A stretch of DNA of 64,000 nt from Candidatus Bathyarchaeota archaeon (GTDB lineage Archaea; Thermoproteota; Bathyarchaeia; Bathyarchaeales; Bathycorpusculaceae). Shown piece after piece: positions 1,918 through 62,186 of this stretch (positions are counted from its first letter, which is position 1; each line of letters opens with the position of its first letter). The position numbers and the translations under genes are program-made. Under the pieces are notes generated by a model. It saw only the letters and a list, made by a program, of their open reading frames with translations, was not told the origin of the DNA and ran no database searches. The stretch lies in contig JAOZHS010000002.1 of the NCBI GenBank assembly GCA_026014745.1, forward strand, positions 186,001 to 250,000, written 5' to 3'.

Positions 1918-3990
1918 CTATACTTCACTCTTCACCTTAGCCAAATACTTATTCACCAAACCCGAACCCGAAACCGCAACATTCACCAACCCACCAGAAA
2001 TCAACGCTAAGCGAAGGAACCCACTTAACGTGCCGAAATTCAAAGTTGCAGGCAAAGATGTCCAAGTAATTTTTCGGTTGCCAACATAAAGCGTCCCCGT
2101 AGCACCAGAACTTGTTGTACCCGTCGAATAAGGCGAGACTGCGGGGATCTCAAGGCTTGTTGCATCAGGATAGGCATATAGTCCGAAAGCACAAACAGTA
2201 ATCTGCAGAGGCATACCAGCATCAATTGTATATGCGGAGGAACTGCCAGAAGAAATAAAGTTGTACTTGACGTTGACAAGTTGCTGCACCGGATTCACAA
2301 AACTAAGAGTCAAAAGCCTAAAGTTTCCTACATAATACTCGTTTAGGTAGGCGCCATGGGAACCCAAATCAACACCACTATGCGTAGCATACAATGAGTG
2401 CCTAAGATGAGGATATACTCCAGTATTGATTTTAACCCAACAGAATGCAACGTATGTTCCAGCAGGCAAATTATTATAGCCTTGATACAGGTAGGCGTTG
2501 CTGCCGTAGCCCGTCAAAGTCGCCATAATACTGTGACTACCCAAAATACCCGCACCGCCATCGCTAAACGTGACTGAACCACTCGTCCACACAGAACCCA
2601 TAGCAGTCCAACCCGAAGGCGTAGACACATAAGGCCCCGAATTAAAGTTCGGATTTACCAGCAAATTAGTAACCGATGCCGAGGTAACGGTGATTATAGC
2701 GTCTAAAAGCGTTCGCGATGAAACTGCTATGCCGCCGGCTCCAAAAGTGGAGCAACTAAATTTGTCAGCCCCATCGATTATATAGTTGGCTTCAGCACGA
2801 GTTAAACGCTTAAACCTTCCCAACGGATAAGTTGCGCCTGCATTTCTATCAGCGAAATATATGTAGTCGCCAAATAAGCATAGGTCAACGCTTGCACTTG
2901 TATGGTCAGCAGTAGCTTTTAGGCGTGTCAGCACCTTCCAACTGTTACCTAAATCAAAAGACACAATAATCGATTGGTACGTGTCATAGCCGCCTGCTGC
3001 AGGGTTAGGCGAATTGTCTGTTCCTGCGTATAGAACGCCGTTTTCCGAGTCAAAAACGATATGTTTGAAAATTACGTTTGCAGAGCAGATACCGACTAGG
3101 GGATTAAAAACGGGTGCCCATGTGTTGGTTACATGAGTGTACTTTATCGCGGGTGTCCAACCGTCACCGAAGTAAATTGTGTAGTCGCCCATGTTGATGA
3201 ATGCACAGTATCCGTTGTGGCCACACACATTTGTCCAGTTAGCGGCATTCGTTGGGTCGGTTGCGTCGGTTGAATCCGCTGGGTTGCCTGCATACTTCCA
3301 CATGCTATGTCCCGAATCGCCTATGGCAACAATTAACGTGTGGGTTTCAGGAATCCAATTCATGCTGTGAATATGCCGCATGTCGTAAAAGTTAGTCGGG
3401 CTAAGCGGCGAGGGAACCGCATAGAGCGGAAACATTGTCGTAAAGTTTGTCCAAACGCTCCAAGTTGCGCCGTAGTCGGTAGAGATATAGATTAGGGGGG
3501 CCGTAAAATCGCACCATTCACCGAGCAAGTGCCTGCCGTTACCTAAGTCCACAAAGTTAAAGGTCGGCACAGACCCGTTGTTTTGTGTGGTTGAGTCAGG
3601 TTTAGTCGAAGAAAGCGTTAAGACACTTGTCCAAGTCGCACCTTGATTGGTGCTTCGCCACACTTTCCCATCCGTATTTGAACCTGAAGCGATACTAACA
3701 AACAAATGCCCTGATGAGCTCTTGTGCACAAAAGTTGAGCCAGAGGATGGGCTCCCGTCGAATATTTTCTCAAAGTAAAGACCGCTACCGCACCTAATCG
3801 CCTTAAACACTTTAGCGTCAGTAGTACCAATCAGCATAGTGTTCTCGTCGTATTTGAGCAGGGTATATGGCGTATAGGAAAATGCTTCTATAGGCTCTAT
3901 GTTGAGACTTGTTCGTGGAGGAAATAGACTCTTCCCAGCATCGCCTAAAGGCAGAATAACTCCACCCAAGTCAAAAGAAGGCACACTCAT
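1918..3990 (-). CDS. Sialidase-type beta-propeller protein, probable virion fibre or host-recognition protein
   Basis: A 690-aa protein without a signal peptide. At least three BNR/Asp-box motifs are visible: STNQGATW (about residue 112), STDYGATW (about 169) and SFDLGNSW (about 344). These mark a sialidase-like propeller over roughly the first 400 residues. The C-terminal third (from about residue 430) is beta-rich and looks like a carbohydrate-binding jelly roll followed by a small terminal domain. The propeller fold is known in sialidases and in glycan-binding proteins; catalytic residues were not established. Sitting 2 bases after the small gene upstream and inside the capsid operon, it is most simply a receptor-binding or capsid-decorating protein. 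Confidence 0.6.
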   Translation of the reverse strand: MSVPSFDLGGVILPLGDAGKSLFPPRTSLNIEPIEAFSYTPYTLLKYDENTMLIGTTDAKVFKAIRCGSGLYFEKIFDGSPSSGSTFVHKSSSGHLFVSIASGSNTDGKVWRSTNQGATWTSVLTLSSTKPDSTTQNNGSVPTFNFVDLGNGRHLLGEWCDFTAPLIYISTDYGATWSVWTNFTTMFPLYAVPSPLSPTNFYDMRHIHSMNWIPETHTLIVAIGDSGHSMWKYAGNPADSTDATDPTNAANWTNVCGHNGYCAFINMGDYTIYFGDGWTPAIKYTHVTNTWAPVFNPLVGICSANVIFKHIVFDSENGVLYAGTDNSPNPAAGGYDTYQSIIVSFDLGNSWKVLTRLKATADHTSASVDLCLFGDYIYFADRNAGATYPLGRFKRLTRAEANYIIDGADKFSCSTFGAGGIAVSSRTLLDAIITVTSASVTNLLVNPNFNSGPYVSTPSGWTAMGSVWTSGSVTFSDGGAGILGSHSIMATLTGYGSNAYLYQGYNNLPAGTYVAFCWVKINTGVYPHLRHSLYATHSGVDLGSHGAYLNEYYVGNFRLLTLSFVNPVQQLVNVKYNFISSGSSSAYTIDAGMPLQITVCAFGLYAYPDATSLEIPAVSPYSTGTTSSGATGTLYVGNRKITWTSLPATLNFGTLSGFLRLALISGGLVNVAVSGSGLVNKYLAKVKSEV

Positions 3991-3992
3991 CG

Positions 3993-4223
3993 TTAAGACC
4001 TCACAATCTGCTGCAGAGTCCCATCAGCGTTCCAAGTGAAAGTCAACGTAAACATCAGGTATGTACCATCATATGCGGAGAGGGTGGCAACTGTTCCGGT
4101 AGTGTTCCAAGTGAAACCGAGTTTGGTAAGTTTACGCCCTGGCGGTGGACACGTCAAACCCATCAAGGCACTGTGGATAGCTCTGTAAGCTTCCTCGTAA
4201 TGCCCGTAGGGTACCTCAGTCAT
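3993..4223 (-). CDS. Small beta-rich protein of the capsid operon, unknown function
   Basis: A 76-aa protein not assigned to a family. The second half contains two similar beta hairpins (around FTWNTTGTVATLSAYDG and FTWNADGTLQQIV). It overlaps the portal gene upstream by 8 bases and ends 2 bases before the fibre-like gene, so it belongs to the same transcript. A role as a small virion or fibre-attachment protein is possible but rests only on position. Confidence 0.6.
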   Translation of the reverse strand: MTEVPYGHYEEAYRAIHSALMGLTCPPPGRKLTKLGFTWNTTGTVATLSAYDGTYLMFTLTFTWNADGTLQQIVRS

Positions 4224-5433
4224 CTGCGGTCACCTCAAGTGGAGGGGTAGGTTCCCAGAGTTGCCAACCGAATTTGGCGGCGTTTTTGCGAAATTCCTCT
4301 TGGCGAATGAGGCCTTGGCTTGCGGCTTGTAGAAGGTCAGTGAGGCTTGGTTGCTGGGTTTTGTAGGGACTCCAATGTAGGCGTGCTTGAGCTTGCGAAG
4401 GACTCAACCCTGCCTGCAAAAGTATGGTATCGAAGAGTTCACGTTCTACTTGGCGTTTAATGTAGCGTTGGATGGGCTGAATTAGCATGTTTTGAAGTTC
4501 CAGCGCGGCGTTAGCGGAGGCTTCTGTGAAACCCGGTGTACTAAAGAGGCGGGGCAACGGAGTTTCGCAGCCAAGATAGAATTGGTTGATAATATGGTCA
4601 ACGTAGTATTCGAAGCGGGCACGAGGGTCAATCGAGACAGGTTGGATGCTGCCTTTGCCGTTGTAGAAAAGCCAGGCGCCTTCTTCGCTACGGGTTTTGA
4701 TGGCTTGCTGAAACTTGGCGATTGTGTCATCGTCAGCACGTTCTAGAAGCGCCAAAACGTCTGGTCCAGCATATTTCTCAAAAATCTTGGGCATAATACG
4801 CTCGATTCTGGCTTTCATAGCGGCGTAGGCGGGGCGTTTGTCGCCATGGAAAGTTAACGAGTGCAAAAGCACCTGTAACACGCCCGTGCCGTAGCCCGAG
4901 TAATCAAGGCAGTTAATACGCCAATGGACTAACGCGTCTTGGGATAGGGTTTCGCCACCGTAGGTTTGCCTAAGCTTATAGCCCTCAATCTTGTAGGGCA
5001 CTTTGAGGACTTTATCGTCAAGGTAGCTTTGCTGAATGCGCTCTACAGCGTCCACGGGTAGGCGGTGGAGGTTCTGGGTGTTTTGGGGGGTAAGTTTGAG
5101 CCAGAAATCATTACCGCATGCAATAAGCATCCGCGCCATGTCTCCGAGCAAAGCGTCCAGGTTCACGTTTTCGTTAAAGTTATCTATGACTTGTTTGGCT
5201 TGGGCGGCTTTTTCGTAATCATCGTTTATGGTGGTGTAGAAGCCGGAGCCAACTGCGGATGCCGCTAAGAGGTCTACGCTTGATTTGCAGGAAGGATCCC
5301 GCTCGTAGAGTTTAATCACATCCGCTAGGGGGATAGAGGGCGTCTCGTAGACGAGGGCAGTTTGGGGGGATGCGTAGCCGCTTTTAGCCTTAACCGCAAA
5401 CGACTCCAAAAGGCGACGAAGCGTGCTGCTCAT
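4216..5433 (-). CDS. Phage portal protein
   Basis: A 405-aa protein matching the HK97/lambda-type portal family, which forms the dodecameric DNA channel at one capsid vertex. Family-like features are an early segment on depositing constant numbers of cells ending in AASAVGSGFY, a central conserved region (DALVHWRINCLDYSGYGTGVLQVLL) with the Gly-rich turn typical of portals, and a long C-terminal helical crown with the segment around FTEASANAALELQNMLIQPI. The length is usual for the family. Its start overlaps the winged-helix gene by 4 bases (ATGA) and its end overlaps the next gene by 8 bases. Its position downstream of the capsid gene is unusual. Confidence 0.85.
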   Translation of the reverse strand: MSSTLRRLLESFAVKAKSGYASPQTALVYETPSIPLADVIKLYERDPSCKSSVDLLAASAVGSGFYTTINDDYEKAAQAKQVIDNFNENVNLDALLGDMARMLIACGNDFWLKLTPQNTQNLHRLPVDAVERIQQSYLDDKVLKVPYKIEGYKLRQTYGGETLSQDALVHWRINCLDYSGYGTGVLQVLLHSLTFHGDKRPAYAAMKARIERIMPKIFEKYAGPDVLALLERADDDTIAKFQQAIKTRSEEGAWLFYNGKGSIQPVSIDPRARFEYYVDHIINQFYLGCETPLPRLFSTPGFTEASANAALELQNMLIQPIQRYIKRQVERELFDTILLQAGLSPSQAQARLHWSPYKTQQPSLTDLLQAASQGLIRQEEFRKNAAKFGWQLWEPTPPLEVTADD

Positions 5434-5672
5434 GTGATGGCCTCCAAGAGTTTGCTGCCCTTCTCAGTTATGATGTAGTCGGAGCGGTGTTTGGGTTCAC
5501 TTTTCTGCACGTAACTACCTTCAATGAGATAGCGGAATATGCCTTCAAAGGAGGCATGCGTACCTGCTTTGCGGATGGTTCGCTGTTCAAGTGCGGTTCG
5601 GGAAAGCGGCTGTCGACTAAGTTCATGCAATACGGTTTTTGCCAGGTTCATTCTTTCATTTAATCTTCTCAT
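5430..5672 (-). CDS. Small winged-helix protein within the capsid operon
   Basis: An 80-aa protein with an N-terminal helical half, a probable recognition helix (ASFEGIFRYLIEGSYVQ) and a C-terminal wing ending in SDYIITEKGSKLLEAI, the common ending of archaeal winged-helix transcription factors. It lies between the major capsid and portal genes and overlaps the portal start by 4 bases. It could regulate the operon or act as a small DNA-packaging factor (some terminase small subunits are helix-turn-helix proteins). The sequence does not decide between these. Confidence 0.6.
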   Translation of the reverse strand: MRRLNERMNLAKTVLHELSRQPLSRTALEQRTIRKAGTHASFEGIFRYLIEGSYVQKSEPKHRSDYIITEKGSKLLEAIT

Positions 5673-5739
5673 ATGTTTCGACCTCGAGTTTTAGATTACA
5701 AAAAAATTGGGGAAATGGAGTGGTCATGATGTTGCCTGC

Positions 5740-6702
5740 CTATGTGAGGGTGGTGGCTATGTTGGTGAGTTTGGCGATGGCGTTGCTGCGCAGCACGCCT
5801 AATCCGAAGCGGGTGGTGGCGCGGACGCCATATTTGCCGTTTTTGATGTCTTCCCAGTCGTCCACGGTTATGTCTCGGCGTAGCAGCATGACAGAGGCGA
5901 CTCGGGTGTCAAGGGCATATGCGGTGCCGTTGGGGACAAGTGTGCTGGCTTGGACGCGCATGCCAAGCACGCTGGTAACGGTTCCGTCGTCGAGGTTGGT
6001 CTGCGCGGAGGGCAAATATTGGGCGTGAATGAATTTGTCATCACTCAAGAGTTGGTGAAGTTGAATTTCGTTGACGGCGAGTACAGTGGGTTTCCAGTTT
6101 GCAGCGCGTAGAGCATTGTGCATTTTTAGAAGCCCAGCCCAGTTCATGGCGGCGTTGCCTTGGTTTATGGGGGCTCCGCCCGCTAAGTCTGCGTCTGCAA
6201 CTGAACCGTAGAGGGCGATGATGCGGTTGGTTTCGTCTTCTCCTAGTGCGCGGCCTACTTTTTCGACCATGCTGTTCATGACGTTCCAGCTTGCATCCTC
6301 CAAAAACTCTCGGGTCCATTCCTCTGAAGATTCAGCCAAGATGTTGGTGTAGACATCAACAGTGCTGTTTTTTGTTCCGCTCAGACGGGTGGCGGCTCCT
6401 TCGGCATATCGATAGGCTACTGCTTTTTGGTCAATTGGGAACCGTTCCATAGGGACTGTGGTGGGCATTACTGTGATTATGTCTCTGCCGATTAATTCGG
6501 GGTAGGCAGCTTGCACAAGCGTGTCATGCAAACGACCCAAAGCAGAGATGGAGTCACTGAATAAGCCTTCTTTTATGCCTACTTCGCAGTAGCGTTTAAG
6601 GAAGGGGTGGACATTGGTTTTGTGACGTTGGGTTTCGAGGTGTTCTTTGAATTCAGCGTTTTGCTGGAGAGATTCAAACAAGTGGGGTTTCATGGCGGTC
6701 AC
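5740..6702 (-). CDS. Major capsid protein, HK97-fold-like
   Basis: A 320-aa protein with the layout of HK97-fold capsid proteins: a helical N-terminal arm, then a beta-rich E-loop region (TTVPMERFPIDQ and the SGTKNSTVDVYTNILAES stretch), a long spine-helix region (EEWTREFLEDASWNVMNSMVE), and the P- and A-domain segments ending in YGVRATTRFGLGVLRSNAIAKL. The stretch MLLRRDITVDDWEDIKNGKYGVRA is a common C-terminal signature of archaeal virus and encapsulin-like capsid proteins. It overlaps the decoration-protein gene by 4 bases. Protease, decoration protein and portal in the same operon support the call. Confidence 0.8.
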   Translation of the reverse strand: MTAMKPHLFESLQQNAEFKEHLETQRHKTNVHPFLKRYCEVGIKEGLFSDSISALGRLHDTLVQAAYPELIGRDIITVMPTTVPMERFPIDQKAVAYRYAEGAATRLSGTKNSTVDVYTNILAESSEEWTREFLEDASWNVMNSMVEKVGRALGEDETNRIIALYGSVADADLAGGAPINQGNAAMNWAGLLKMHNALRAANWKPTVLAVNEIQLHQLLSDDKFIHAQYLPSAQTNLDDGTVTSVLGMRVQASTLVPNGTAYALDTRVASVMLLRRDITVDDWEDIKNGKYGVRATTRFGLGVLRSNAIAKLTNIATTLT

Positions 6703-7130
6703 CGTTCAACTTTTATGAAGAGTAAGTCGTCTGCTGCGGCGGTGGTTTCTTGGGCGGTTCCAAGGCGACGGTTATAGTAGATGGTGTAGCTTGCGGTGCC
6801 TGCCTCGTTTACGGCTTGTTCAGTCAATTCAAGGACGCGTTTGGAGGCGTCTGCTGCGTAAACGGCTTTGCCGCGGGTTATGACGCCGCCAGCTTTGACT
6901 TTGACTCTGCCATGGGTCAAAACGGGGCATTGCTCGCCTGTGGAGACGCTTTTTAGCGCGATGCCGATGCAGGTTTGAGCGGCGGCTGCAGAGGAGACTT
7001 TGTGGTCGCTGCTGTAATAGACTGGGTCACCTTTGGTTATGGCTGCTTCAGCTTCGATTGATTCTATGGCTGCGTGGGGGTCGTCGGTTTCGCCTATACT
7101 CATCCAGCTTTTAGAGGTAAAATCAGTCAT
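6699..7130 (-). CDS. DUF2190-like capsid decoration protein
   Basis: A 143-aa beta-rich protein with the pattern KGDPVYYSSDHKVSSAAA, then CIGIALKSVSTGEQCPVLTHG, then GGVITRGKAVYAADASKRV. This resembles the DUF2190/head-decoration family usually found beside HK97-type capsid genes. The repeated Gly-Asp/Gly-Lys turns fit a small beta-tulip or beta-barrel that binds the outside of the capsid. Its stop overlaps the capsid start by 4 bases. The neighbours (protease upstream, capsid downstream) give the strongest support. Confidence 0.7.
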   Translation of the reverse strand: MTDFTSKSWMSIGETDDPHAAIESIEAEAAITKGDPVYYSSDHKVSSAAAAQTCIGIALKSVSTGEQCPVLTHGRVKVKAGGVITRGKAVYAADASKRVLELTEQAVNEAGTASYTIYYNRRLGTAQETTAAADDLLFIKVER

Positions 7131-7177
7131 TTTGTGTTACTCCCTTTTTAGTGCGTGTTCTCCGAGTTCGTCCTCAG

Positions 7178-8338
7178 TTACTTACGGTCAACTTTGTGAC
7201 TATCCTGCATTGCTTTGAGCTTGAAGAGTACACGGGAGAGCTCTTGGCACATGCGTTGGGGACCTAAACTCCAACTCCGCTGAACCAGATGGCTGGGTAA
7301 CACTGCCTCAAGGAGGCGTATGGCTTGGCTTACGGGTATGGTGGGTTCGGCGGGTTTTTTGAAGAAGCCCTCCGCGAGTGTTGCAGCCTGGGCACCTGAG
7401 AGGGGGGTCAGGTAGCTGGGGTGTAGTTGGAGCCAGTCGCGGATTTTGTTTTGATCCCACCTTTTTTCTTGCGAGAAATAGATGGCTTGGGTACGTTGAA
7501 GTTCGGGTTGGCTGCGGGGTTTACCCATTATCGCCAATATTCCGTTTTCTCGGTTCAGCCATACCGTGCTATAGTGTTCGGGCATAAACAGGGCGATATC
7601 TTGATAGAAACCCAGCGTGTATTCGCCGACTATAATGGGCAGGGTTTCTTGTTCTTTTAGGTGGAGTTTTTCGATGATTTCAATGTTAGTTTGGGGGACG
7701 CCGGGGACGGCGACGAGGCTCATCTCTGCGTTGTAGAGGCCATGTGGCACTTTGCCGTTGACTAAATCGATGGTTTCATAGTCTGCGCCGACACTCACGT
7801 GCTTGATTAAGCCGTTGCGGATTTTCGATGCGGTTTCTTCATCGTATATTTCCGCGGTGTAGAGAAGGCTTTTGCCGTCCCATTGGGTCTTTGTTACTTT
7901 GCCCACGGCGTCTTGGGCAGTGACGTGTTCAAGGTATACAGGTGCTTCGAGTAGTTTGCTGGCAAATGCCTCTAGCTCCTCGGGGGTGTAGATGTTGAAG
8001 TTGCGACTCATCCCCGCTGCTAGGGCGATGCCTTGGATACGAAGGGGCTTATCGAGAACTTTTTCGGCAATCACAAAGGGCAGAACCGCGCAAACATGCT
8101 CTTTGGCGCCTGTGAAATGCTTCTCAAACCATTCCTGCGCAGCTTGCAGCGTCCAACCCTTGTCTTTGCTAAATAGGTAGCTTTGGATTTCTTGGGTATC
8201 CTTGTCTAGTGGTTTGCCGACGACGGCTTGGATTCCTTCGGCCTCGTTTAAGTTGATTGTTTTTAGGGTTTGGGGCTGGAAGTTTTGGGGGTTTTTATGC
8301 CCGCTTTGTATCGTTTTTGATGTTTCTTCCCATGGCAT
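7178..8338 (-). CDS. Capsid maturation protease, HK97 prohead-protease type, with two flanking repeat domains
   Basis: The start is set at the ATG at 8338 because GAGGT lies 9 bases upstream; an ATG 45 bases earlier has no ribosome-binding site. The 386-aa product has a prohead-protease core with a probable catalytic His138 (in VYLEHVTAQDAVGKV) and Ser182 (in LIKHVSVGADYE). The core is flanked by two copies of a domain of about 43 residues (33-75 and 264-306), both with the pattern G-I-x-A-[VI]-x-GKP ... F-S-x-[DE]-K-x-W ... W. Families of this type cleave the scaffold before DNA packaging. The C-terminal third may be the scaffold part. It is the first gene of the structural operon. Confidence 0.75.
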   Translation of the reverse strand: MPWEETSKTIQSGHKNPQNFQPQTLKTINLNEAEGIQAVVGKPLDKDTQEIQSYLFSKDKGWTLQAAQEWFEKHFTGAKEHVCAVLPFVIAEKVLDKPLRIQGIALAAGMSRNFNIYTPEELEAFASKLLEAPVYLEHVTAQDAVGKVTKTQWDGKSLLYTAEIYDEETASKIRNGLIKHVSVGADYETIDLVNGKVPHGLYNAEMSLVAVPGVPQTNIEIIEKLHLKEQETLPIIVGEYTLGFYQDIALFMPEHYSTVWLNRENGILAIMGKPRSQPELQRTQAIYFSQEKRWDQNKIRDWLQLHPSYLTPLSGAQAATLAEGFFKKPAEPTIPVSQAIRLLEAVLPSHLVQRSWSLGPQRMCQELSRVLFKLKAMQDSHKVDRK

Positions 8339-8418
8339 TTTGCTATACCTCACACGACTAATACCAAGCATATATGGCGTCAAAGTGAAAAGGCGAGTTG
8401 TACCGTGCTTTAGCCCAT

Positions 8419-24264: not shown

Positions 24265-24816
24265 TTATTCTACAACGTAACGGTAAGTTACGTGTTCGCC
24301 TGCCGTGGTGCTTCTTCGGGTAATCTTGAGGACGTCGCCGGGTTGTGCGCCGATGGCTTTAACTGCGGGGTCGCCAGAGCGGATCTGGGGCATCTGGTAG
24401 GGCTGGACTTTGAATTGACCGAGGAGTTGATTCTTTTCTTTTTCGCTTAGAATTTCATGATAGGGAACAAGGGCATGTTCAAAGATGTCGAAAACTGGGA
24501 ATGATTTTGGTAAGAGTTCAACGTTTTTCTTTTTTGCGCCCAATTTTACGGCGTGGGTGTAGCGGCCTTCGGTGACGACTATGGCTCGTTCTAGCTCTTT
24601 TTCTTTCATCACCTTATAGAGGGTGTTCATTGCTGCGATGCCCACGGTGGCTTCGCCAAGGATACACCAAACGATGGCGCGTTCCTTGTCTTGGGGTATG
24701 TCAATTATGTAGGCGTAGGCGCCTTCGTATTGTTGCTTCTCGACAAGCTTGTATTTTCTGAGTTTAATCAGAACTTCTGCCTTGCGTTCCTCAATCGTTA
24801 ACATATTAGTACTCAA
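24265..24816 (-). CDS. rpoH: RNA polymerase subunit H, long form with Rpb5-like N-terminal jaw domain
   Basis: A 183-aa protein. Residues 113-183 are a complete archaeal RpoH: EHALVPYHEILS, then QMPQIRSGDPAVKAIGAQPGD, then STTAGEHVTYRYVVE. Archaeal RpoH normally is only this part (about 75-85 aa). Here residues 1-112 form an added domain whose pattern VGI(58-60) ... MKEKELERAIVV (70-81) ... T87 ... LLPKSFPVFDIFEH runs straight into the core, as the N-terminal jaw domain does in eukaryotic Rpb5 (KVGI ... MQEENITRALIVV ... T ... ITEHELVPEH in human Rpb5, from memory). It is not next to rpoB or rpoA here. Confidence 0.88.
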   Translation of the reverse strand: MSTNMLTIEERKAEVLIKLRKYKLVEKQQYEGAYAYIIDIPQDKERAIVWCILGEATVGIAAMNTLYKVMKEKELERAIVVTEGRYTHAVKLGAKKKNVELLPKSFPVFDIFEHALVPYHEILSEKEKNQLLGQFKVQPYQMPQIRSGDPAVKAIGAQPGDVLKITRRSTTAGEHVTYRYVVE

Positions 24817-33300: not shown

Positions 33301-33606
33301 TTGGGTAAACGAAAAATAACAAATGAGGGCAGCTTGGAAAGCATGATTCTGCCTACTTCTAATGATGTTTTGGGTATAGCAGTAAAAATGTTAGGTGCAG
33401 ACAGAATTATGGTGAAATGCCAAGATGGCAAAGAACGTCTATGCAGAGTCAGAGGCAAACTTAAAAGGCGCGTCTGGATACGCGACGGCGATATCGTTTT
33501 GGTTTCTCCGTGGGATTTTCAAAGTGACAGTAGAGGCGACATATTTTGGCGTTATAGGAAAAATCAGTGTGACTGGCTTAGAAGCCACAGCTACCTGACC
33601 ATGTAG
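33301..33606 (+). CDS. eif1A: Translation initiation factor aIF1A, copy 1
   Basis: A 101-aa OB-fold protein with a TTG start: KITNEGSLESMILPTSNDVLGIAVKMLGADRIMVKCQDGKERLCRVRGKL in pieces, then KRRVWIRDGDIVLVSPWDFQSD. These are the family's RNA-binding OB fold and C-terminal helix. It binds the ribosomal A site and promotes initiator tRNA and start-codon selection. It is one of two copies here; the other (61318-61623) differs at roughly a sixth of positions. It is followed by the LysW-like gene and, further on, aIF2-alpha. Confidence 0.93.
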   Translation: MGKRKITNEGSLESMILPTSNDVLGIAVKMLGADRIMVKCQDGKERLCRVRGKLKRRVWIRDGDIVLVSPWDFQSDSRGDIFWRYRKNQCDWLRSHSYLTM

Positions 33607-33619
33607 GAGGATACGCTCG

Positions 33620-33799
33620 ATTATTATAAAGTGCACTGAATGTGGGAATAAGTTCACAAAAGAAACCCCATCTGATGGAGAAGTTGGAGAAGTGGTATGT
33701 TGCCCAATCTGTGAAGCTCAATACAAAGTAATAGTTACTGATGGGAAATTGCGTTTAGAAGAGTCGATATGGGACGAAAATGACCGTGGAGAACTCTGA
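33620..33799 (+). CDS. LysW-like zinc-ribbon protein, copy 1; probable ATT start
   Basis: The frame reads 59 residues: KCTECGNKF and CCPICEAQYKV (two CxxC pairs), VTDGKLRLEE, and an acidic tail ending ENDRGEL. The layout (zinc ribbon, short beta, acidic tail ending like EDWGE) resembles LysW amino-group carrier proteins. No ATG, GTG or TTG exists between the in-frame stop at 33596 and the first Cys. GGAGG at 33606-33610 is followed after 9 bases by ATT ATT ATA. The second copy has the same problem. No lysine/arginine LysW-pathway genes are nearby. Confidence 0.68.
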   Translation: MIIKCTECGNKFTKETPSDGEVGEVVCCPICEAQYKVIVTDGKLRLEESIWDENDRGEL

Positions 33800-33820: not shown

Positions 33821-34348
33821 ATGAGTGAAAATAAGATAAATTTCATAATAGCGGTACGTGGCTATAAAAACGTGAAAAAACAAACAAACGGTAAATTCAC
33901 GGACTTTTCGGCTGCAGATCAATTGAACCAAAAAGTGCTCATGCGGATTATTGAGCCTCAAGGAAATGAACTGATAGGCGTCACTGAGGTCAAAACCTTA
34001 TCAGTTTTCATGAAACTCGAAAGCTATGCTTCCGCGGTTCTATTTGGCAGAAAATTCACAGAAGATGCTATTACAGAAATGAGCGAGCATAACATTCAGT
34101 ATGTTTCTGAAGACTACCTGCCACCATTCGACACTAAACAATTATACTTAGCAATTATGGACTACATCAACATTCAATGCGACAAAAGATGCGGAAGAAC
34201 CTTACATGCAATATCTGAATGCGAAGAAAAAAATAAGGACTTCTGCAAAATAAAAAACCTTGCCAAAAGCGCAAAAGAACATTTTAAAGATGGAACAGTT
34301 GGATTACTGAAAAACGACTTAAAAATGGCTTTGGCGCTGAGTCGCTAA
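33821..34348 (+). CDS. Stand-alone Rpb5-jaw/Mrr-like domain protein with C-terminal Cys motif
   Basis: A 175-aa protein not assignable to a named family. Residues 52-105 line up with residues 58-110 of the long RpoH in this window: [IV]G[IV]-x3-[NK]TL-x3-MK-x5-A[IV]-x4-[RK][FY]T-x2-A ... PxFD. The same region is the jaw domain of Rpb5, a restriction-nuclease-like fold. A C-terminal C-x3-C-x9-C-x7-C motif (C120, C124, C134, C142) may bind zinc. It lies between the LysW-like gene (21-base gap) and aIF2-alpha (30-base gap), so it is probably co-transcribed with initiation-factor genes. Function unknown. Confidence 0.7.
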   Translation: MSENKINFIIAVRGYKNVKKQTNGKFTDFSAADQLNQKVLMRIIEPQGNELIGVTEVKTLSVFMKLESYASAVLFGRKFTEDAITEMSEHNIQYVSEDYLPPFDTKQLYLAIMDYINIQCDKRCGRTLHAISECEEKNKDFCKIKNLAKSAKEHFKDGTVGLLKNDLKMALALSR

Positions 34349-34378: not shown

Positions 34379-35167
34379 ATGTCTGAACAAAACATAGAAT
34401 GGCCTGAAATCGGCGACTTAGTTATCGCAACCATCAAAACAGTGATGGACTACGGCGTGTATGCTAACCTTGATGAATATAACAAGAAGGGTTTTCTTCA
34501 CATCTCAGAGATTTCAAGCGCCCGTATACGAAACATCCGAGATTTTGTCCGTGAAAACCAAAAAATGGTCTTAAAAGTTCTTCGAGTAGACTTAGAAAAA
34601 GGTCACATAGACTTATCGTTGAGGCGAGTCACCAAACGGGAACGTATCGAAAAAGTCAAGTCGTGGAAAAAAGGGAAAAAAGGAGACGCATTACTCTACG
34701 TAGTTGGTGAACGGGCGGGTTTATCAAAGGAGGAAATACAGCAGAAAGTCGGCGCTATTCTGGAAGAAAAAATCGGCATCTATGAAGGCTTCGAGAATGC
34801 CGTAAAAGAAGGCCCTGATAGTCTGGTCAAATATGGAATCCCTGAAGATTTGGCAAAGGTTATCGCGCAAGTTGCAGATGAACGCATTAAAATTAAATCA
34901 GTCAAATTAAGAGGCGTCTTGGAGGTGCGGTGCATGCAGCCCAACGGCGTCAGATGCATCCAAGAAGCATTCCGTAATGCAAAAAAAACTAACTCTTCAA
35001 AAAATTCTAAAATCGAGTTCGCAGTCATAGCTGCACCAAAATATCGCGTTGAAGTTTCTGCCGATAACTGGAAAGCCGCAGAAGCACTTCTTAAGAAAGT
35101 AGCTGACAGTGTGGTTGAAAACATCACAAGCTTAGGCGGACATGGCGACTTTAAGGCAGAGAAATAA
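34379..35167 (+). CDS. eif2A: Translation initiation factor aIF2 subunit alpha
   Basis: A 262-aa protein. An N-terminal S1 domain (GDLVIATIKTVMDYGVYANLDEYNKKGFLHISEIS, in pieces; about 10-85) contains the segment where eukaryotes carry the regulated Ser. A helical domain (about 90-175) and the C-terminal alpha/beta domain that binds the gamma subunit (RGVLEVRCMQPNGVRCIQEAF onward) follow. With beta and gamma it delivers initiator Met-tRNA to the ribosome. It is the last gene of the aIF1A cluster. Confidence 0.94.
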   Translation: MSEQNIEWPEIGDLVIATIKTVMDYGVYANLDEYNKKGFLHISEISSARIRNIRDFVRENQKMVLKVLRVDLEKGHIDLSLRRVTKRERIEKVKSWKKGKKGDALLYVVGERAGLSKEEIQQKVGAILEEKIGIYEGFENAVKEGPDSLVKYGIPEDLAKVIAQVADERIKIKSVKLRGVLEVRCMQPNGVRCIQEAFRNAKKTNSSKNSKIEFAVIAAPKYRVEVSADNWKAAEALLKKVADSVVENITSLGGHGDFKAEK

Positions 35168-35282: not shown

Positions 35283-35507
35283 ATGCCTCAAGATATTGTA
35301 ACAGAAGTAATATGTACTGACTGCGGAAAATCTACAAAAGTTCCCTTTAAACCAACAGCGGGTAAACCCGTCTATTGCCAAGAATGTTTAATTAAACACA
35401 GACCCCCCAGACGTCCCGACCCAAAAAATAACCGTGGACCAACAAAACCACAGGTTATGGAAAACGAAAAACAAGCCTGGTCCCGACGCCGCGGTAACTG
35501 GAAATAA
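35283..35507 (+). CDS. CxxC-type small zinc-ribbon protein
   Basis: A 74-aa protein with two Cys pairs spaced like the CxxC-x17-CxxC zinc-ribbon family: CTDCGKSTKVPFKPTAGKP then CQECL. A basic, Pro-rich tail (HRPPRRPDPKNNRGP) ending RRRGNWK suits nucleic-acid binding. It has an ATG start and stands alone downstream of aIF2-alpha. Confidence 0.75.
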   Translation: MPQDIVTEVICTDCGKSTKVPFKPTAGKPVYCQECLIKHRPPRRPDPKNNRGPTKPQVMENEKQAWSRRRGNWK

Positions 35508-56969: not shown

Positions 56970-57290
56970 TTAAGGTTGATTTTCGGGTTCCTTAGACTCA
57001 GGCGTCCTACGTTTCCTAAACAAAATGAAAACGTGTCCTCTCACTTCAACCAGCGCAGCTTCAGTTTCTTTAGCTGCTTTAGCTGCAATCTCTTCAGCGG
57101 TTGTGAGCTCCTTTAGAGCCGCGGGTAAAATTCGGATTTTGACCATCTTGTTCTGTTGTAGCTGTTTCTCTATCTCCGCAACTGACTGCGCTGTTAGGCC
57201 ATCTTTGCCAATCCAGATGGTGGGGTTTTCGTCTTTTAGGACATGCCTAACATGACGTTTCATGCGTGTGGTTATCTTGCTCAACTTCAC
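56970..57290 (-). CDS. yhbY: YhbY/CRM-domain RNA-binding protein
   Basis: A 106-aa protein with the CRM-domain elements: RHVLKDENPTIWIGKDGLT, EIEKQLQQNKMVKIRIL, and the end LVEVRGHVFILFRKR. Archaeal and bacterial YhbY bind pre-ribosomal particles. It overlaps the Rnp4 gene by 44 bases; a later ATG at 57263 would cut this to 17. Same operon as Rnp4. Confidence 0.88.
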   Translation of the reverse strand: MKLSKITTRMKRHVRHVLKDENPTIWIGKDGLTAQSVAEIEKQLQQNKMVKIRILPAALKELTTAEEIAAKAAKETEAALVEVRGHVFILFRKRRTPESKEPENQP

Positions 57291-57606
57291 TGTGCACCTT
57301 TTTCTTAAGCATTATACGGGTTTGTTCCCCGCAGTTTAAACATGTTACTACGACGTGAGGCTCCCTTTTCTGCTTTACCCTAACACGGCAGTTAACGCCA
57401 TACACAAACAGCGAGTTACATTGTTTGCAGGTTTGCCGTCCAAACTCTGTGGGCAAACGGATTTTGGCTGCCATGGCAATCCGTCGGGCGGACAGGATGT
57501 ATTGCGCCGCAAGTTTGGGGTCAGCTTTAGCTACTTTCTGGGCATGGGCGAAGAGGATTTCGATGCGTTGCCGCGCAATCTGCCTAATGTTGCCTTGCTT
57601 CATCAT
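57247..57606 (-). CDS. rnp4: Ribonuclease P protein component 4 (Rpr2)
   Basis: The start is set at ATG 57606, matching the truncated copy at 61974. The 119-aa product has an N-terminal helical pair (RQIARQRIEILFAHAQKV, LAAQYILSARRIAMAAKIRLP) and a zinc ribbon with CKQCN and CLNCG. It is a protein subunit of archaeal RNase P, which matures the 5' end of tRNAs. Together with YhbY it heads the conserved ribosomal cluster. A second, broken copy lies 4.5 kb away. Confidence 0.93.
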   Translation of the reverse strand: MMKQGNIRQIARQRIEILFAHAQKVAKADPKLAAQYILSARRIAMAAKIRLPTEFGRQTCKQCNSLFVYGVNCRVRVKQKREPHVVVTCLNCGEQTRIMLKKKVHSEVEQDNHTHETSC

Positions 57607-57761
57607 AAGCCTAAACAATCCAGAAAAGCACGGTTCGCTTACATAATAGTTGCGCCTCTGCTGGCTTTGTTTGTCTCTTTGTGTGGGTTTGGCGGTTTAC
57701 GGGATGCCACAAGATAGCCGTAGGTGGCGTTTGTTTTTTGGGTTTGCTTTGTGTTTCTGCG

Positions 57762-61317: not shown

Positions 61318-61623
61318 ATGGGTAAACGAAAAGTAACAAATGAAGGCAACATAGACAGTATGGTTCTGCCTTCGCCAAACGATGTTTTGGGCATAGCAGT
61401 GAAAATGCTGGGTGCCGAAAGAATCATGGTTAAATGCCAAGATGGAAAAGAACGTCTCTGTAGAATCAGAGGTAAACTGAAAAAGCGCGTCTGGATAAGA
61501 GAAGGCGACATAGTTTTGGTTTCACCATGGGATTTCCAGACCGAAACTAGAGGCGATATATTTTGGCGGTACCGAAAGAACCAGTCAGATTGGCTTAGAA
61601 ACCACAATTACCTAACAATGTAG
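61318..61623 (+). CDS. eif1A: Translation initiation factor aIF1A, copy 2
   Basis: A 101-aa protein, ATG start, the same length as copy 1 and alignable without gaps: NEGNIDSMVLPSPNDVLGIA, GAERIMVKCQDGKERLCRIR, KKRVWIREGDIVLVSPWDFQ. All OB-fold positions are kept, so it is probably functional. Changes are mostly conservative (D/E, K/R, I/V). It is followed by the second LysW-like gene; the copy 1 successors (jaw-like gene, aIF2-alpha) are missing. Confidence 0.92.
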   Translation: MGKRKVTNEGNIDSMVLPSPNDVLGIAVKMLGAERIMVKCQDGKERLCRIRGKLKKRVWIREGDIVLVSPWDFQTETRGDIFWRYRKNQSDWLRNHNYLTM

Positions 61624-61632
61624 TGAGGACTG

Positions 61633-61830
61633 ATTAAAATTAACCTTAAATGCACCGAGTGCGGAAACACATTCAAGAAAGATTGTATAGCACTTGACGA
61701 AGTAGTTATCTGCCCAATCTGCGAAGCAGAATACAAAGTAGTGGCAACAACGGATGGCAAACTACGTCTAAAAGATTTTGTCCTCGACGAAAGTGACTTT
61801 GGTGAACTAAGCGTTTCACGAGAAAAATAA
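61633..61830 (+). CDS. LysW-like zinc-ribbon protein, copy 2; probable ATT start
   Basis: The frame reads 65 residues: LKCTECGNTFKKD, VVICPICEAEYKVV, TDGKLRLKDF and an acidic stretch DESDFGEL followed by a short tail. An in-frame stop at 61624-61626 leaves only GGA CTG ATT AAA ATT before the ribbon, so no ATG, GTG or TTG start exists. A GAGG site at 61625-61628 precedes ATT 61633 (4-base spacing) and ATT 61639 (10-base). It is the homologue of 33620-33799. Confidence 0.66.
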   Translation: MKINLKCTECGNTFKKDCIALDEVVICPICEAEYKVVATTDGKLRLKDFVLDESDFGELSVSREK

Positions 61831-61973: not shown

Positions 61974-62186
61974 CTATCGATTTAATTCGCTATGGGTTTC
62001 ATACTCTGAGAGAGTATGGAATTTTGAATGGGGCAAACGGATTCGTGCCGCCATCGCAATCCGCCGCGCCGAACCCACATATTCTGCCGCCAGTTTGGGG
62101 TTGCTCTGGGCGACTTTTTGGGCTTGCACAAAGAGGATTTCGATGCGTTGCCGCGCAATCTGCCTAATGTTGCCTTGCTTCATCAT
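61974..62186 (-). pseudogene. rnp4: Truncated second copy of RNase P component 4
   Basis: A 70-residue frame whose first 49 residues closely follow Rnp4 (GNIRQIARQRIEILF, then AARIRLP). After RIRLP it switches to unrelated residues (HSKFHTLSEYETHSEL). The zinc ribbon is missing, so it is not expected to work in RNase P. The upstream 270 bases, including element R3, also match the region upstream of intact rnp4. Confidence 0.78.

Follow-up and report, generated by a model that had tools for sequence, protein, structure and literature searches.

Gene content of the locus

The window, meaning the whole analyzed stretch of 64,000 nucleotides (G000:C2:186001-250000), belongs to a 2.7-Mb genome (G000) of a Candidatus Bathyarchaeota archaeon. 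It contains a gene for a stand-alone jaw-like protein, a gene for a long RpoH and a group of translation-related genes, located as follows.

24265-24816, reverse strand: long RpoH (Rpo5) of 183 aa, with an N-domain (residues 1-108) and an Rpb5_C core (residues 109-183)
33301-33606, forward strand: aIF1A-2, a second aIF1A paralogue with a TTG start; the canonical copy, 60% identical, lies at G000:C1:1092423-1092722
33620-33799, forward strand: LysW-like zinc-ribbon gene (ORF approximately 33602-33799)
33821-34348, forward strand: stand-alone jaw-like protein gene, an ORF of 175 aa from ATG to TAA
33821-34135, forward strand: N-domain of the stand-alone protein (residues ~1-105), a paralogue of the RpoH N-domain with an inactivated Mrr-type PD-(D/E)XK fold
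34133-34345, forward strand: C-terminal helical tail of the stand-alone protein (residues ~105-175) with C120, C124, C134 and C142, a probable metal site
34379-35167, forward strand: aIF2alpha-2, a second paralogue with S1 and EIF_2_alpha; the canonical copy, 64% identical, lies at G000:C1:70471-71253
35283-35507, forward strand: small treble-clef zinc protein (zf_Tbcl_2), with similar genes near several other members of the stand-alone family

The ATG of the stand-alone gene follows the stop codon of the LysW-like gene by 21 bases, and its own stop codon precedes the ATG of aIF2alpha-2 by 30 bases. The four cysteines form a C-x3-C-x9-C-x7-C motif. The ORF, the motif and both gaps, as given in the original prediction, were all exact when the window was rechecked. 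The LysW-like ORF has no in-frame ATG, GTG or TTG ahead of its first CxxC, and an AGGAGG followed by ATT is a possible unusual start. Elsewhere in the window, 61977-62186 (reverse strand) looks like a truncated copy of 57247-57618 (reverse strand), which by eye resembles an RNase P Rpp21-like protein, and a run of genes at 1918-8383 (reverse strand) resembles, also by eye, phage structural genes.

Relatives of the stand-alone protein, alignable along its full length and with 26-57% identity, were found in approximately 30 of 101 related genomes. In an alignment of 29 members all four cysteines are invariant, as are D36, L49, R51, F86, A90, I99 and D175 (L020 numbering), the alignments of this family being shallow. 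Because of these relatives and the invariant cysteines, the ORF is a real gene. The family is restricted to the window's order of Bathyarchaeota and is patchy within the window's genus (11 of 32 genomes), so the protein is dispensable. A second member in the window genome (L002, G000:C2:800481-801002) is 42% identical and has a fuller DNxxFHFExGW tail motif.

Homology with the N-domain of RpoH

Comparison of the two window proteins by BLASTP aligned residues 1-116 of the stand-alone protein collinearly with residues 8-118 of the long RpoH, with only 21 bits (E 0.007), a result too weak on its own and no more than suggestive of relatedness. As a single query, the window protein already matches long RpoHs of related genomes (L030, E 6e-8), and a profile of the stand-alone family (A1), run against 397 genomes, matched RpoH N-domains with E values from 1e-20 to 1e-5, including the window's own RpoH N-domain at E 5.9e-6. 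Besides RpoH, the single identified match of the family profile at E <= 1e-4 in these genomes was a short Mrr-like ORF (L117). Alignment of the stand-alone family and RpoH N-domain profiles with hhalign gave a probability of 99.2 and a score of 113 over 110 columns; over all RpoH N-domain comparisons the probabilities were 99.2-99.5 and the scores 113-128, over 105-113 columns. The scores of 150 column shuffles had a mean of 12.2, an SD of 2.5 and a maximum of 20.6, and other Mrr-type domains from the same genomes reached 29-55 only.

In a maximum likelihood tree of 80 domains, the stand-alone family (support 96/83), the RpoH N-domains (99/98) and a second RpoH type (L112, L045 and L046; 99/93) form one clade separate from Mrr, with a support of 98/98. 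A P-x-F at the position that corresponds to the start of the RpoH core is also common to the stand-alone family and RpoH, and is not found in Mrr. With the family profiles added to the lone window pair, the homology of the stand-alone protein with the RpoH N-domain, together with its architecture, is as good as certain. The match between the two window proteins that had been read from spaced residues was thus borne out, the profile alignment lying far above both the column-shuffled controls and the other Mrr domains.

Fold, lost active site and cysteine tail

The AlphaFold model of the stand-alone protein has a pLDDT of 86.6. Its N-domain has the element order H-E-E-E-H-E-H-E, which is equal to that of the well-predicted N-domain in the AlphaFold model of the window RpoH, a model built from two sequences only and of low confidence in its core part. 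Foldseek searches of the PDB with the stand-alone protein retrieved EndoMS as the best match (3.3e-4), the Rpb5 chains of ASFV and yeast, EcoT38I and MspJI; the Rpb5 chains were matched with a probability of 1.00 and a TMq of 0.32-0.41 across the whole chain. With the window RpoH as query, Rpb5 chains fill the top ranks. The two models agree in a PD-(D/E)XK fold that includes the Rpb5 jaws and EndoMS.

Among the 29 family members, 21 matched Mrr_cat (PF04471) and 27 matched NA-iREase1 (PF22722) at E <= 0.1, while the window protein itself matched neither. The catalytic D and E/Q-x-K of Mrr read D and R-x-I in the stand-alone family, where the D is kept (35/35), the E/Q is replaced by R (35/35) and the K by I or V (34/35); an intact D...(E/Q)xK active site is not present in the family. 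In the RpoH N-domain the catalytic pattern is wholly gone, including the D. These replacements mark the stand-alone domain, whose fold is that of the Rpb5 jaw, as an inactivated member of the Mrr-type PD-(D/E)XK group, and the protein is very probably non-catalytic. The earlier label "Rpb5-jaw-like" therefore holds for the fold and for the position of the domain in RpoH, but not for the family to which the domain belongs, which is Mrr-type, with Pfam Rpb5_N unmatched.

A protein that still cleaves nucleic acid through an altered active site, serving repair or defence, would agree with the invariant D and R at the active-site columns, with EndoMS as the top structural match and with weak PADLOC mREase_IV matches. 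However, the catalytic E/Q and K are replaced in 34-35 of 35 sequences and no defence genes are found among the annotated neighbours, and we regard such an activity as very improbable. A role in defence was set aside because the matches of the family in PADLOC and PHROGs were only weak and scattered.

The retained D also bears on the origin of the domain. An Mrr-type domain may have been recruited independently, in which case the stand-alone protein would not descend from the RpoH jaw; this would account for a catalytic D that is gone from RpoH, and no branching arrangement of the stand-alone, RpoH and second RpoH clades was rejected in a topology test, a result that favours neither direction of descent between RpoH and the free domain. 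On the other hand, the RpoH domain is the closest relative by a wide margin, and the common clade and the P-x-F at the core junction argue against independent recruitment, which we consider somewhat doubtful.

The Rpb5_C core (PF01191) is absent from the stand-alone protein and the cysteine tail is found in its place, as had been predicted; the tail shows no similarity to the RpoH core. A tail-only profile had no relatives outside the stand-alone family in 250 genomes and no real PDB match, and the helical fold of the tail is taken from one structure prediction. With four invariant cysteines and an invariant histidine, the tail is a probable metal site. The same residues could provide a Zn or Fe-S switch in a metal-sensing regulator that places the dead nuclease fold on DNA, and inactive REase-like domains do serve as binding modules (cf. 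the NA-iREase1 match). Neither a recognizable DNA-binding module beyond the fold nor a fixed target operon is seen, however, which makes a regulator of this kind improbable.

The long RpoH and the eukaryotic Rpb5 jaw

The window RpoH matches the Pfam families Rpb5_C (3.8e-29) and Mrr_cat (1.9e-6). Besides the window's order, one other family of the class (L118) has long RpoH ORFs of approximately 180-210 aa, whereas RpoH frames elsewhere in the phylum are mostly of 80-140 aa. The second RpoH type likewise has a two-domain Rpb5-like layout, and both types occur in G064. The RpoH of G084 (L124, 265-921, reverse strand) has an apparent zinc-ribbon insertion within the N-domain.

Pfam Rpb5_N (PF03871) matches neither the stand-alone family nor RpoH. 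When the RpoH N-domain profile was compared with all PDB sequences, the 11 best matches were to Rpb5, in register and with a best value of 1.4e-4; a single RpoH sequence gave only E 0.45, again to Rpb5, and the profile of the stand-alone family gave no matches to PDB sequences. The name "Rpb5 jaw" is thus based on the fold, the place in RpoH and a marginal profile match of RpoH only. The evidence favours a relation of the RpoH N-domain to the eukaryotic jaw, short of settling it.

Archaeal RpoH has been described without the Rpb5 N-terminal domain (PMC3906176), and the accessible part of a 2026 survey of archaeal subunits, which covers Rpo6 and Rpo8, describes no such Rpo5 (PMC13257274). No description of a jaw on archaeal RpoH was found in the portion of the literature covered. 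A domain of this type on RpoH across a whole order of Bathyarchaeota contradicts the published archaeal view, and together with a free, differently tailed paralogue it allows questions of how the Rpb5 jaw arose and what it does to be tested in archaea. The stand-alone protein was rejected as a replacement for RpoH because the window genome and most carriers also have a full-length RpoH.

Gene neighbourhood and duplicated initiation factors

The full order aIF1A-LysW-jaw-aIF2alpha is found in G000 and G025. In G011 the order is aIF1A-jaw-aIF2alpha, in G014 and G008 the jaw gene is followed by aIF2alpha, and aIF1A-LysW-jaw without aIF2alpha is found in G003, G005, G013, G015, G021 and G029 as well as in G048 of the same family. 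Elsewhere in the order, with neighbour calls based on the longest ORFs, the jaw gene lies beside aIF1A/XPD helicase, TFB, PCNA-primase, GlyRS, SRP54/deoxyhypusine synthase, NAC, aIF5B, L35Ae or unrelated genes; the neighbours are for the most part informational, vary between families and are non-informational at L067, L071, L076 and L077. Given these other neighbours, a universally conserved initiation-factor gene order was rejected, and the predicted order holds in part of the window's genus only.

The initiation-factor cluster described in the original prediction is present in the window, but it had gone unseen that the adjoining aIF1A and aIF2alpha are second paralogues. Canonical aIF1A and canonical aIF2alpha are encoded in nearly all genomes of the genus, a few showing one type only in the searches made. 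The jaw-adjacent copies share at least 79% (aIF1A) and at least 69% (aIF2alpha) identity with those of the window, compared with approximately 55-67% for the canonical ones. By these identities, the jaw-adjacent genes are an extra paralogue set with canonical copies elsewhere. Within the genus, aIF1A-2 is present in 10 of 11 genomes with the jaw gene and in 5 of 21 without it (Fisher p 0.0005, ignoring relatedness), and aIF2alpha-2 is a weaker partner (7/11 versus 6/21, p 0.07, likewise ignoring relatedness). A third aIF1A in the window (61318-61620, forward strand), 83% identical to the copy at 33301, is followed by a LysW-like gene (~61645-61809, forward strand) with no jaw gene.

The neighbouring aIF1A-2, LysW-like and aIF2alpha-2 genes in the genus, and L35Ae, aIF5B, NAC, GlyRS and ThrRS-like neighbours elsewhere, are what would be expected of a purely translational factor binding rRNA, tRNA or initiation factors, with a link to RNA polymerase by ancestry only. 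Other families, in which TFB, PCNA/primase and XPD helicase are neighbours, fit less well, and among its relatives the domain stands closest to an RNA polymerase subunit; we find a purely translational factor rather unlikely.

Proposed role

As an overall explanation, we give about an even chance to a non-catalytic docking factor made together with the second initiation-factor set. Homology, fold, the lost active site, the invariant cysteines, the extra initiation factors and the informational neighbours across the order speak for it; the variation of neighbours between families and the patchy distribution speak against it. The jaw-like domain would bind nucleic acid, or the RNA polymerase surface or downstream DNA used by the RpoH N-domain. 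Because the core that anchors RpoH is missing, the stand-alone protein would dock without being built into RNA polymerase; for the same reason, contact with RNA polymerase is a guess. The cysteine tail may bind a metal (Zn or Fe-S) and thereby provide a second contact or a sensor. On the simplest account, the protein would have kept a fold that faces nucleic acid or polymerase and gained a metal tail. That it docks, within information processing, on RNA polymerase or on nucleic acid has a probability slightly short of even.

In the window's genus, the stand-alone protein would be produced together with the second initiation-factor set, and for this reason its probable place of action, under some condition, is where transcription and translation meet. 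Co-purification of initiation factors with RNA polymerase subunits, aIF2alpha with RpoH among them, is known from Haloferax (PMC8576121), and by analogy a coupling role is possible. In its full form, the idea of a dedicated factor linking RNA polymerase to specialized translation initiation with duplicate initiation factors is unlikely. The findings point to an undescribed factor tied to extra copies of aIF1A and aIF2alpha.

Comparison with known systems

The closest known counterpart is the N-domain of RpoH/Rpo5 from the same order, whose homology shows in the profile comparison, in the tree and in the predicted secondary structure. RpoH differs in having an Rpb5_C core and in having lost the D, whereas the stand-alone protein has a cysteine tail, and both its D and an R are invariant. 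With the eukaryotic Rpb5 jaw (PF03871) the stand-alone protein shares the PD-(D/E)XK-like fold found by Foldseek, but neither a PF03871 sequence match nor the Rpb5_C core. Most family members match Mrr_cat and NA-iREase1, from which they differ by the loss of the catalytic E/Q and K and by a cysteine tail that resembles no known partner of these domains. The C-terminal nuclease domain of EndoMS/NucS is the top structural match, but the stand-alone protein has neither its nuclease motif nor the NucS N-domain.
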